DNA of 64,000 bases from Clostridia bacterium (GTDB taxonomy: Bacteria > Bacillota > Clostridia > Peptostreptococcales > JAAYPU01): positions 1-64,000 of the forward strand of contig JADQBM010000003.1 in NCBI GenBank assembly GCA_016278615.1, written 5' to 3'. The notes under the pieces are model-generated. The model made no database searches. It was given only the letters and a program-made list of their open reading frames with translations, and was not told the origin of the DNA. Numbering within the stretch: position 1 is the stretch's first letter; each line of letters starts with the position of its first letter. Both the position numbers and the translations under genes were made by a program. Below are positions 52,473-59,901 of this stretch, one piece after another.

Positions 52473-53333
52473 ATGGAAGAATTGAAAAGACCCCATTGGA
52501 TAAAAAAACGTGTAAGTGAGATTGCAAATATTGAAGAAACAGAGAAACTGTTAAGGAGTTTGGGGCTTCACACGGTTTGTGAAGGGGCTGAATGCCCTAA
52601 TATCGCAGAATGCTTTGGTAATAAAACAGCAACATTTATGATTTTGGGAGGCGTTTGCACCCGTCAGTGTAGATTTTGTGCCGTTACCAAAGGTGCACCT
52701 GAGAAAATTGATGGGCAAGAACCGGCCAATATTGGAAAAGCAAGCAAAGAAATGAATTTGAAACACATTGTCGTCACATCTGTAACAAGAGATGATATGC
52801 CCGATGGCGGTGCAGAGCACTTTGCTAAAACAGTGAAAGAAATAAGAAAACATAATCCCCAATCCACAATAGAACTATTGATTCCTGATTTGCAGGGAGA
52901 TTGGGATGACCTAAAAACCATCGTTAACTCAAAACCAGATGTTTTAAATCATAATTTAGAAACCGTCCCTTCTTTATATAAAGAAGTAAGACCTCAAGCC
53001 AATTATAACCTTTCTTTGGAATTATTAAAGAAAGTAAAAGATTTTAATCCTTCTATCTATTCTAAATCTGGTATCATGTTGGGATTAGGGGAGAAGGAGG
53101 CTGAAGTCTATCAAGTGATGGATGACCTAAGAGAAGTAGAGTGTGACATCCTAACCATGGGCCAGTATCTAAGGCCTACAAAAGAGCATATTTCAATAAA
53201 AGAATATATTCATCCAGACAAATTCGAAGAATACAAAAAAGTTGCGTTACAAAAAGGTTTCAAATACGTCGCTTCGGGACCTTTAATCAGGAGCTCCTAT
53301 AATGCAGGACTGGCTATGGATGAGATGGAGTAG
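52473..53333 (+). CDS. lipA: lipoyl synthase
   Basis: 'CEGAECPNIAECFGNKTATFMILGGVCTRQCRFCAV' two Fe-S cluster motifs; 'SGIMLGLGEKEAEV'. Confidence 0.97.
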   Translation: MEELKRPHWIKKRVSEIANIEETEKLLRSLGLHTVCEGAECPNIAECFGNKTATFMILGGVCTRQCRFCAVTKGAPEKIDGQEPANIGKASKEMNLKHIVVTSVTRDDMPDGGAEHFAKTVKEIRKHNPQSTIELLIPDLQGDWDDLKTIVNSKPDVLNHNLETVPSLYKEVRPQANYNLSLELLKKVKDFNPSIYSKSGIMLGLGEKEAEVYQVMDDLREVECDILTMGQYLRPTKEHISIKEYIHPDKFEEYKKVALQKGFKYVASGPLIRSSYNAGLAMDEME

Positions 53334-55180: not shown

Positions 55181-56197
55181 TCAGTTAATAACAGTAAAAT
55201 AATCATCTTCCTGAAGCATAAAATGACCGGAACTGTAGGGGTTTCCATCTGTAGAGATAAAGACCTTTTCAACCTGATAATAGTTTCCTAATGTGTTTAC
55301 AATACTTTGAATCATTAAACTTTCCATTAATGAACCTGCATTCATTTCTGTAATCAATTCTTCGGAAAAGTCTGCTTTAACTAATTGATTGCTGTAGTCC
55401 AGTAAAATACTGTTTATTTTAGTATTTTCACTAATAGGAGGGGTTAAATCATTCTCCGGAATATTTTTAAATTGAGATTCAAAGATACTTTTTACATCAT
55501 CATTGGTATGAAAAGCAATTTGTTCATCAAAAAAAACTAATTGTTCACTTTTTAAATCAGGATAATAAAACCTAATAGTCAATGGAAGAGCAGTATCTCT
55601 CTCTATTTTTTCAAGTGTGGTTGTTACTTTAAAGTCTTCTGAGTTAAAAACGGAAAATACATGACCCATATCTAAAACATAATAATCTATCATATTTGTT
55701 TTATCATCTATTTCTGTTGTTACTTCTAGAGCTTCGTAGGTTCCTAAAGGAGTCTCAATCTCTGTATCTGTGCTGGTAATACTTCTTTGCCTGCCGTCTG
55801 GCAAAGTCCAAGTAGTGCCTGTTACAAGAGGCTCTTTCAAAATTACTTCTTTGTACTCTTCTTGGATAGCAGTTAAATCTTCCATATAATAAAATTCTTC
55901 TCTCGAAGCAACCACCCTCAACTCACCATCTTTTAATTCCAGTACTTTTGCAAGAGTAGTTCCACCTGTTATGTTTCTCGTCTGAGCTCGATCCCCCCTG
56001 ATAAAGTCAAAGAAAATATCACTTTCAGCATATTCATTTCCTTCACCAGCATAGGAAAGAAGCGTATTCTCTAAAAAGGGATAATAATCTTCTATTCCAA
56101 CTGTTACCGGAGGCTTATCATTATTTTCAGGCGGAGGCGTTCTTCCGCAGGAAGTGATTAATAATAAGGAAAGTACAAGCAATAATATTTTTTTCAT
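55181..56197 (-). CDS. GerMN-domain lipoprotein
   Basis: Lipobox 'LLITSCGR'; C-terminal GerMN-like 'LTIRFYYPDLKSEQLVFF...INSILLDYSNQLVKADFSEELI...QSIVNTLGNYYQVEKVFISTDG'. Confidence 0.8.
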   Translation of the reverse strand: MKKILLLVLSLLLITSCGRTPPPENNDKPPVTVGIEDYYPFLENTLLSYAGEGNEYAESDIFFDFIRGDRAQTRNITGGTTLAKVLELKDGELRVVASREEFYYMEDLTAIQEEYKEVILKEPLVTGTTWTLPDGRQRSITSTDTEIETPLGTYEALEVTTEIDDKTNMIDYYVLDMGHVFSVFNSEDFKVTTTLEKIERDTALPLTIRFYYPDLKSEQLVFFDEQIAFHTNDDVKSIFESQFKNIPENDLTPPISENTKINSILLDYSNQLVKADFSEELITEMNAGSLMESLMIQSIVNTLGNYYQVEKVFISTDGNPYSSGHFMLQEDDYFTVIN

Positions 56198-56332: not shown

Positions 56333-56803
56333 TTATAGGACTGCATCAATAAAACTGAATACCCTGTTGGAATAAAACGGATTATCATACGCATTATTAC
56401 ATAGAATGATAACCGTATTTTTATTCCCTATGTCCCGATATATACCTGTTTCAAAGCCAAAGGCCCATCCTGTATGCCTTACAATATGCCTTGAATCTGA
56501 TTTATCAACCCAAAACCCGTATCCGTAACCACCTTGATTTGAAACAAATGCTTTGTTCAAGTTTTCCTGCTTTATAAGCTTTTCTGTATATAATGCCTGA
56601 TCCCATATGAATAAATCTTCTATTGTTGATTGGAGCCCGCCTGCAGAATATGCTACTGATTTATCAACATAATCTGCTTCCTCACACATGTCCTCTATGT
56701 GTGAGTTCTTGCCGTTTATATATTTGTAACCGGTTGCTTTATTCTCAAAATTATCATTATGATCTATGGAAGTATTCTTCATGCCAAGAGGGACCAAGAT
56801 ATC
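56333..56803 (-). pseudogene. 5'-truncated serine beta-lactamase-like (class C/PBP-related) gene remnant
   Basis: Reading frame begins '...DILVPLGMKNTS' and ends normally, lacking the N-terminal SxxK half; abuts the truncated dehydratase gene. Confidence 0.82.
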
Positions 56804-58173
56804 TGGGCTTGGGGAGAGCCAGCGCCATGCATGGATTCTGTTCTGTAACCAACTGCGCCAGTTCCCAAAGTTAAGTTTTCAATGAGTCTCATGATTCTCA
56901 TTCTATACTCTGTTGGGACGGAAGAGACGCCACGGAGATATTTTTCTATATAATGTCCGATTTCAGGGCTTCTATAGTCTTTTTCGGAGGGTTGGGTTAC
57001 CATGATGCCCCCTGCAATATCTTCGGCTAAGCGTGCAATTTCGTAAGGAAACCGTGTCACATTTTGCTTGCAAACATTTGCCAACATCATGTCAATTAAA
57101 TAAGCGCCTGAATCAGTGGGAAATCCTTCATAAGAGCAGGCAAGAGCAGATGAATAGATGGTTTCATTTAAATGAGTCATTTCAATCAATTTATCTTTAA
57201 TATGGGAAGCTTTTGAAACGCCATTATACTCTGCTGCCAATGCAGATGCTCCAATTAGAACATCCCCAACACCTACTTTACAGGCATAACTGGGTCTATG
57301 GTGTCCTGCAAATCTTTCAACTAACATTCCAACAAACTCTGTTTCTCCATCTAAAAAAATTCTTTCGTTAGGTACAAAAACATTATCAAAGACCACAAGA
57401 GCTTCATGACCACCGTAGGTGCTATTACCTACGTCCATATCTGAATCTTCAAGCTTTCGAGTATCACAAGATTGGCGTCCGTAAATAATAACAATACCTT
57501 CAGTATCTGTAGGGACTGAAAAGCTAATAGCATAATCCTTGTCTTCTGGTTCCATGGATATGGTTGGCATGACTAAAATCTCATGAGAATTTACAACTCC
57601 GGTTTGATGAGCCTTGCACCCTCTTACGACAATGCCATCTGTGCGTCTTTCTACAACTCTTAAATACATGTCGGGGTCTTCTTGCTGGCTCGGAGATAGA
57701 GCGCGGTTCCCCTTAGTATCTGTCAAGGCGCCATCTGTAACGAGATCTTCTTCTTGAACATATTCTAAAAATTTTAATAGGCGTTGGTGGTATTTTGTAT
57801 CATATTTTTGGTCAATTTCGAAAGAAGTGCTATAGACTGCATTTAACGCATCTTGGCCGACGCATCTTTGAAAGCAACAAGCACTTTTTTGGCCTAAGAG
57901 ACGTTGTCTTTTTACCTTTTTAACTAAGTCTTCTGTATTTTGAAAGATATGATTATAGCGGTTAATTCTTTTAGAAGTCACGTGAGAAATTGCTGTTGTT
58001 AAATCCATGTGTTCGGGATCTAAAGCTAAATCGTAAGTGAGGGCAACGGCATTCATAGAAGGCCGTATCATAGGATGGTCTACTGGATTATCAATTTTTT
58101 CTCCAAACATATAGATCAATAGGTTATGTTTTCTTAAGGAATCAATGTATTCTTTTCCAGTCTTTAGAGCCAT
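56779..58173 (-). CDS. abfD: 4-hydroxybutyryl-CoA dehydratase / vinylacetyl-CoA isomerase family protein, C-terminally truncated
   Basis: 'SACCFQRCVGQDALNAVY', 'GHHRPSYACKVGVGDVLIGA', 'TESMHGAGSPQAQ' then abrupt foreign tail ISWSLLA*. Confidence 0.87.
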   Translation of the reverse strand: MALKTGKEYIDSLRKHNLLIYMFGEKIDNPVDHPMIRPSMNAVALTYDLALDPEHMDLTTAISHVTSKRINRYNHIFQNTEDLVKKVKRQRLLGQKSACCFQRCVGQDALNAVYSTSFEIDQKYDTKYHQRLLKFLEYVQEEDLVTDGALTDTKGNRALSPSQQEDPDMYLRVVERRTDGIVVRGCKAHQTGVVNSHEILVMPTISMEPEDKDYAISFSVPTDTEGIVIIYGRQSCDTRKLEDSDMDVGNSTYGGHEALVVFDNVFVPNERIFLDGETEFVGMLVERFAGHHRPSYACKVGVGDVLIGASALAAEYNGVSKASHIKDKLIEMTHLNETIYSSALACSYEGFPTDSGAYLIDMMLANVCKQNVTRFPYEIARLAEDIAGGIMVTQPSEKDYRSPEIGHYIEKYLRGVSSVPTEYRMRIMRLIENLTLGTGAVGYRTESMHGAGSPQAQISWSLLA

Positions 58174-58301: not shown

Positions 58302-59216
58302 TTATCGGTTTTTTTCTAATACTTGGATTTGATTATAAAGCATCTTATTGATTGGAACTTGAATTCCGTATTTTTCCCCTAATTTTATGACACTTCCTGC
58401 AAAAATTTCGACCTCAGTTTTTCTTCTCGCTTCCATGTCTTGAAGCATGGAGGTTTTTCCCTGAGGTGAGAGCTTGTGCAATGTAGTCATTATTCTATCA
58501 AGATCTTGAGAAGTTAGGTTGACACCAGCCATTTTTGATAGTGTGATGACTTCTTCTGATGCCATTAGAACCAGTTCCATGGCTTCCTGGGAGGTTTGAA
58601 AAACACCATAAGGTGCGCCTAGAACCGTGGAAACCTGATTGATTCCCACATTGAGCATAAACTTCCACCACTGTTCTCTTACTATATTTTCAGGAATTTC
58701 ATAGGGAATCTGTGATCTTTCAAACAACTCCTTTACTGCAAGAACTTCAGATGAGTTATTATTGATTGGGTCACCCAATACAATTTTACCTATATGTGTA
58801 TAGGTTACTTGTGTTTCATTTCGTATGGCATCCTGACCAACACAAAAAGCATAAAGGATTTTATTTTCAGTAAACTCTTTCTCCAAGATTTGCTCGCTTT
58901 CAATACCATTTAGTAAAGACATCAAAATCGTATGTTTCCCTACATAATTCTTTAAATCTTTTATTGCTCCTTTAAGTTGATGTTGTTTTACAGAAATAAT
59001 CATTAAATCAGCTGGTGCACCACTTTGCTCAGGAGTGATATAAGTAAAGTCATAACCCTTTTTATTTATACTGACAGGGTTTTTTGTATATCTTTTGATA
59101 CGTGCTTCATCAGCAATTACTTTCAATATCTTCGGATTCATATCATGAATCTTGCTGGCAAAAATACTGCCAATAGCTCCAATCCCTGAAAAATATACAT
59201 TTTTTATAGGATTCAT
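58302..59216 (-). CDS. ketopantoate reductase family (PanE/ApbA) protein
   Basis: 'VYFSGIGAIGSIFASKIHDMNP', 'ADLMIISVKQHQLKGAIKDL', 'EQWWKFMLNVGINQVSTVLGAPYG'. Confidence 0.9.
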   Translation of the reverse strand: MNPIKNVYFSGIGAIGSIFASKIHDMNPKILKVIADEARIKRYTKNPVSINKKGYDFTYITPEQSGAPADLMIISVKQHQLKGAIKDLKNYVGKHTILMSLLNGIESEQILEKEFTENKILYAFCVGQDAIRNETQVTYTHIGKIVLGDPINNNSSEVLAVKELFERSQIPYEIPENIVREQWWKFMLNVGINQVSTVLGAPYGVFQTSQEAMELVLMASEEVITLSKMAGVNLTSQDLDRIMTTLHKLSPQGKTSMLQDMEARRKTEVEIFAGSVIKLGEKYGIQVPINKMLYNQIQVLEKNR

Positions 59217-59384: not shown

Positions 59385-59901
59385 ATGATGAAAACAAATG
59401 AGATTTTAAAGAAGGATGTGTTGAAAATGAATGAGAAGAATAATGCGGTTATCGTTTATTTCTCAAAGGATGGAAATACAAGGAAAGGGGCTAAGATTTT
59501 AGGGGAACGATTAGATGCCAAGTTGATTGAACTTAAAGAGGCGAAAAAAGGGAATGTACTACAAGCAGTTTTTAAGAAAGTTCATCGCTAATGAATGAAC
59601 CATGGAACGAAACAGAAGAAAAGAATGTCTATTTAATGTTCCGATTTGGGCGAGCAATGGTGCACCCGCAATGAATGCATTTTTGGAAAAAGCTGATTTT
59701 ACTGACAAAGGGGTTACAATTATTACTTTTCAACAATTTGTAGATATAAAAAATAGCCCAAAGGTGCATAAACATATTGGTAATATTGCAAGGAATTAAA
59801 ATGGGACCATTCATCAATGCTATGCTTTAATTGGCGGTAAAATGGGACATTTTGCAGGTGAGGAAAGTATTAGAGAACAAATAGATAAGATCATCCTTTG
59901 A
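59385..59901 (+). pseudogene. degraded flavodoxin gene
   Basis: 'NAVIVYFSKDGNTRKGAKILGERLDAKLIELKEAKKG' then frameshifts; later pieces 'NVYLMF' / 'PIWASNGAPAMNAFLEKADFTDKGVTIITF' / 'IGGKMGHFAGEESIREQIDKIIL*' in different frames. Confidence 0.85.

Follow-up and report, generated by a model that had tools for sequence, protein, structure and literature searches.

Two genes in the window, by which we mean the whole 64,000-nucleotide stretch that was analysed, are cut at one shared junction, and a recent illegitimate deletion probably made two pseudogenes from them (Table 1): an AbfD-type dehydratase gene lacking its 3' end and a serine hydrolase gene lacking its 5' end. Such a deletion, proceeding with short or no homology, would have cost a second, expendable dehydratase gene its last 25 codons and stop, and the hydrolase gene downstream at least about 0.65 kb comprising its promoter and roughly its first 220 codons. 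The two pseudogenes would have been left fused out of frame. The earlier note had described a dehydratase fused to a headless beta-lactamase-family gene on the same strand, and this is borne out by the reading frames and by matches to PF11794, PF03241 and PF00144 that are far beyond chance. Its breakpoint, placed near 56800-56806, was right within a few bases and is refined here to 56803, perhaps 56802.

Table 1. Coordinates of the junction, the two broken genes and the intact genes on either side
Feature	Coordinates	Strand	Remarks
Lipoprotein-like gene with GerMN ('Germane') domain	55181..56197	minus	Intact; downstream of the hydrolase remnant
5'-truncated beta-lactamase/PBP-like serine hydrolase remnant	56333..56803	minus	About 155-156 codons plus stop; PF00144 match
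Out-of-frame tail ISWSLLA plus stop codon	56779..56802	minus	Stands where homologues have a conserved C-terminal tail of 24-41 residues
Truncated 4-hydroxybutyryl-CoA dehydratase (AbfD-type) gene	56779..58173	minus	464 aa: 457 homologous residues plus the 7 junk residues ISWSLLA
Junction	56801..56805		Dehydratase codon CAG (56805-56803) overlaps hydrolase codon GAT (56803-56801); sequence ...CCCCAAGCCCAGATATCTTGGTCCC...
Ketopantoate-reductase-family (ApbA/PanE) gene	58302..59216	minus	Complete and intact; upstream of the dehydratase gene

The dehydratase gene starts at an ATG preceded by a good ribosome-binding site, GAGGAGG. In profile searches its match to PF11794 (HpaB_N) is complete (E 6e-100), and its match to PF03241 (HpaB; E 2e-63) stops at position 180 of the 202 in the model. 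The full-length fold of HpaB_N plus HpaB is absent, the N-terminal domain being whole and the C-terminal domain short. Read on the minus strand, the 3' end runs ...TES MHGAGSPQAQ and then ISWSLLA to the stop at 56779. Homology ends at Q457 (codon 56805-56803); the seven residues that follow have no counterpart in homologues and are hydrolase coding DNA read out of frame. Judged by its sequence, this gene is derived from the AbfD family but truncated.

Comparison with homologues supports the same boundary. At least 24 further residues follow Q457 in 99 of 99 intact homologues, and at most 41 in the tabulated set. None of the 99 ends at GSPQAQ, an ending that the earlier note had set against its own reading; a family that naturally stops there is ruled out, and the truncation stands. 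The alignments of all 80 loci from a scan of 84,980 species genomes stop at query residue 456 or 457, and matches in the genomes of 60 relatives do likewise, one fragment excepted. Conservation in the lost tail matches that of the core, where the median frequency of the top residue is 0.93: R458, I461, R463 and K470 are invariant in all 99 homologues, and M460, K471 and A474 are conserved in at least 98% of them. By title or abstract, we found no literature addressing the C-terminal tail of AbfD. Structure predictions for the truncated protein and for the intact paralogue of the same genome, from an alignment of only nine rows, gave a confidence in the C-terminal part that is too low for any verdict on the tail.

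On the other side of the junction, the hydrolase frame reads D(56803-56801)ILVPLGMKNTSIDHN... through to its stop at 56333. Its PF00144 match covers only model positions 172-316 of 329 (E 1.7e-11), and full-length relatives have about 350-430 residues, an example being a 349-aa lipoprotein in genome G056. What remains is the C-terminal part of the fold, including the third motif (the RHTGWAFGF segment). The Ser-xx-Lys and Tyr-x-Asn motifs, which in full-length relatives are both located upstream of this break, are gone; the remnant therefore cannot be catalytic. A sequence search of the PDB with the remnant gave no significant match.

The junction itself is clean. It holds no filler DNA, and the two homologies overlap by no more than about two bases. 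The dehydratase homology extends through 56803 and perhaps 56802, the next codon in relatives being Arg, mostly AGA, while the first recognisable hydrolase codon is the Asp codon GAT, which shares base 56803 with the codon of Q457. Scanning 55.8-58.0 kb revealed no repeat of 14 bases or more at the junction, only short imperfect two-copy repeats elsewhere. No transposase-type gene adjoins the junction and no target duplication is present at it. A scar of an IS or other mobile element, which we also considered, is ruled out by the lack of a repeat at the junction and of a neighbouring transposase-type gene.

The missing pieces were sought in the genome's own assembly (3.5 Mb, 128 contigs, 99% complete), a check that the earlier note had proposed, and neither was found. 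The genome has two other PF00144 genes, each extending over the catalytic part; an orphan N-terminal half of such a gene was not found in the assembly. It also has one other HpaB-type gene, which is complete. With the degenerate pattern RIMI(A/G)R.GN, no second dehydratase tail was detected in the genome at zero to two mismatches besides that of this paralogue, and matches at three mismatches proved unrelated once translated. Both genes are thus cut at one junction with their missing parts absent from the assembly, the pattern of deletion pseudogenes. Since the pieces are absent, loss fits, and a misjoin or a reciprocal rearrangement fits badly, though assembly gaps remain. The intact locus was also looked for in relatives, again as the earlier note had advised. 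No intact side-by-side pair of dehydratase and hydrolase genes was found among the 60 relatives or the 80 loci, and the flanking genes are not syntenic; gene order therefore does not distinguish a deletion from other rearrangements. The simplest reading is that the two genes were formerly neighbours and that the event was one deletion. The note's proposal that a single deletion explains both lesions accordingly stands in so far as both genes are truncated and share one clean junction; the neighbouring origin and the single event are an inference, since a different rearrangement followed by loss of the pieces would leave the same picture.

A rearrangement (an inversion, a translocation or the end of an insertion) might instead have joined loci that were never adjacent, with its other ends lost or lying in assembly gaps. 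None of the relatives searched shows an ancestral pairing of the two genes, and an assembly in 128 contigs necessarily has gaps, both of which this reading would accommodate. It is nonetheless unlikely, as the missing pieces are absent from a 99%-complete assembly and neither a transposase-type gene nor a long repeat nor a target duplication marks the junction. We also weighed whether two true segments of the same organism were misjoined by the assembler at 56803. The junction lies 7.7 kb from the end of the 64,489-base contig, which would suit this reading; yet the true continuations would be expected in the assembly and none was found, and the junction is outside repeats, where misjoins usually arise, which makes a misjoin quite improbable. 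The earlier note had offered an assembly chimera as its alternative. In tetranucleotide profile, the 7.2 kb past the junction correlate with the rest of the window at 0.885, within the 0.836-0.922 of other pieces, and this equal composition on both sides makes a cross-species chimera unlikely; the absence of the missing pieces elsewhere speaks against the same-organism form.

A further possibility is that selection has kept the shortened dehydratase as a functioning enzyme whose 7-residue tail is re-made. All four equivalents of the [4Fe-4S] ligands are kept (C100, C104, H292 and C298), as are E446 and nearly all invariant residues, and the dehydratase body has not decayed. The roles of the ligands Cys99, Cys103, His292 and Cys299 and of E455 in AbfD are what we take to be established knowledge of that enzyme. 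Against this possibility, the lost tail contained four residues that are identical in all 99 homologues, the substitute tail is only out-of-frame hydrolase coding sequence, a complete paralogue is present in the genome, and a recent loss predicts the same lack of decay. We therefore regard a working enzyme as very unlikely. Because the conserved tail is missing, the shortened protein would be expected to be inactive or unstable. The suggestion in the earlier note that function may be partly retained holds insofar as the active-site motifs CCFQRC and HRPSYAC are present, but with so strongly conserved a tail missing, retained function is unlikely. The HRPSYAC context is one residue shorter than the HRQSYGGC of AbfD; it is common to intact copies of C. 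aminobutyricum and C. viride and is not damage. Were the truncated dehydratase folded and active, which we consider a far-fetched prospect, the conserved AbfD-type C-terminal tail would be dispensable.

The complete AbfD paralogue of this genome has 484 residues and lies on contig C121, beside genes for a sigma-54 activator, a 4-hydroxybutyrate-type CoA-transferase, an iron-containing alcohol dehydrogenase and a TRAP-type transporter. Drawn from the sequences and general knowledge, the assignments to TRAP and to the pathway are presumptive; with them, C121 apparently carries a complete 4-hydroxybutyrate utilisation cluster. Given this complete paralogue, the truncated copy is dispensable. The latter stands alone between the ketopantoate-reductase-family gene and the hydrolase remnant. 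A second broken gene is found nearby, where a flavodoxin-like gene lies in pieces at 59385-59900 (plus strand): an N-terminal piece at 59430-59580 and a C-terminal piece at 59620-59900, the latter in a different frame and containing an extra in-frame stop. When joined, the pieces give weak matches to NF005501 (E 7e-7) and PF12682 (E 0.002). These fragments suggest ongoing gene decay in the stretch. The window also holds a lipoyl-synthase-type radical SAM gene at 52473-53333 (plus strand), which is not linked to the junction finding; its relatives, at 51-67% identity, occur in about half of the searched genomes of the order.

We examined divergence for signs of age. The closest relatives of the truncated gene, intact paralogues in C. 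aminobutyricum (L004, 80%) and C. viride (L003, 78%), are its sister copies with support of 100/100. The dN to the C121 copy as outgroup is 0.224 for the truncated gene versus 0.231 and 0.244 for the intact orthologues, and its terminal branch is 0.16 versus 0.19 and 0.26 summed for the sisters. Of 125 columns that are otherwise invariant, it departs at 2. No stop interrupts the hydrolase remnant over about 155 codons, and about 0.25 stops would be expected per 1% of neutral substitution; this open frame implies a neutral divergence of probably less than about 12% since the break. Both broken frames are open and no acceleration is seen in the evolution of the dehydratase, so that either the break happened recently or the dehydratase body remains under constraint; a recent break needs fewer assumptions. 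Elsewhere in the same order, one genome has an AbfD copy with an open frame in which only residues 1-122 and 331-457 are recognisable (G051:C13:948592-949743), and another has a 27-residue AbfD relic with a stop (G008:C3:175849-175929). Spare copies may often be lost.

The truncated copy and its two sisters (L003:5001-6449 and L004:5001-6449) form a rare AbfD subfamily, marked by an additional Cys next to the first cluster ligand (CCFQRC) and by a His-x5-Cys ligand loop that is one residue shorter (HHRPSYAC). Both marks occur in 3 of about 100 homologues, and the short loop alone in three others. The sisters share both motifs with the truncated copy; unlike it, they are complete, with a 25-residue tail RIMI(A/G)RLGNF..., and have different gene neighbours. 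The genes that accompany the intact member in C. aminobutyricum (L004:44-7221) encode two 2-hydroxyacyl-CoA dehydratase subunits, a BadF-type activator, a FabA-like dehydratase, a CoA-transferase and an FMN reductase. This neighbourhood hints that its substrate or pathway is not plain 4-hydroxybutyrate.

In annotations, 56779-58173 should appear as a truncated gene copy rather than as a functional 4-hydroxybutyryl-CoA dehydratase, and the hydrolase fragment should be left out of any count of beta-lactamases. The intact copy on C121 covers the pathway, and the finding has little significance beyond annotation. The three-member short-loop subfamily may merit biochemistry on its intact members, those of C. 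aminobutyricum or C. viride.

The best solved relative of the truncated dehydratase is AbfD of Clostridium aminobutyricum (PDB 1u8v), with query residues 3-457 aligned to AbfD 2-466 of 490 (455 residues). The two have in common both Pfam domains and the equivalents of C99/C103/H292/C299 and E455. The truncated gene differs in lacking everything after AbfD Q466 (24 of 490 residues), in having H-x5-C where AbfD has H-x6-C, and in the extra Cys adjoining the first ligand. The hydrolase remnant resembles the PF00144 family, as in the G056 lipoprotein, over its C-terminal 150 residues, including the H-x-G motif region, its best relatives being only 44-47% identical; it differs in having lost the N-terminal 220 residues with the signal peptide, SxxK and YxN. 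Ordinary bacterial deletion pseudogenes likewise show a clean junction, the loss of one 3' end and one 5' end, and a functional spare copy elsewhere. Set against them, the present lesion has nothing unusual: it is an ordinary recent gene breakage.
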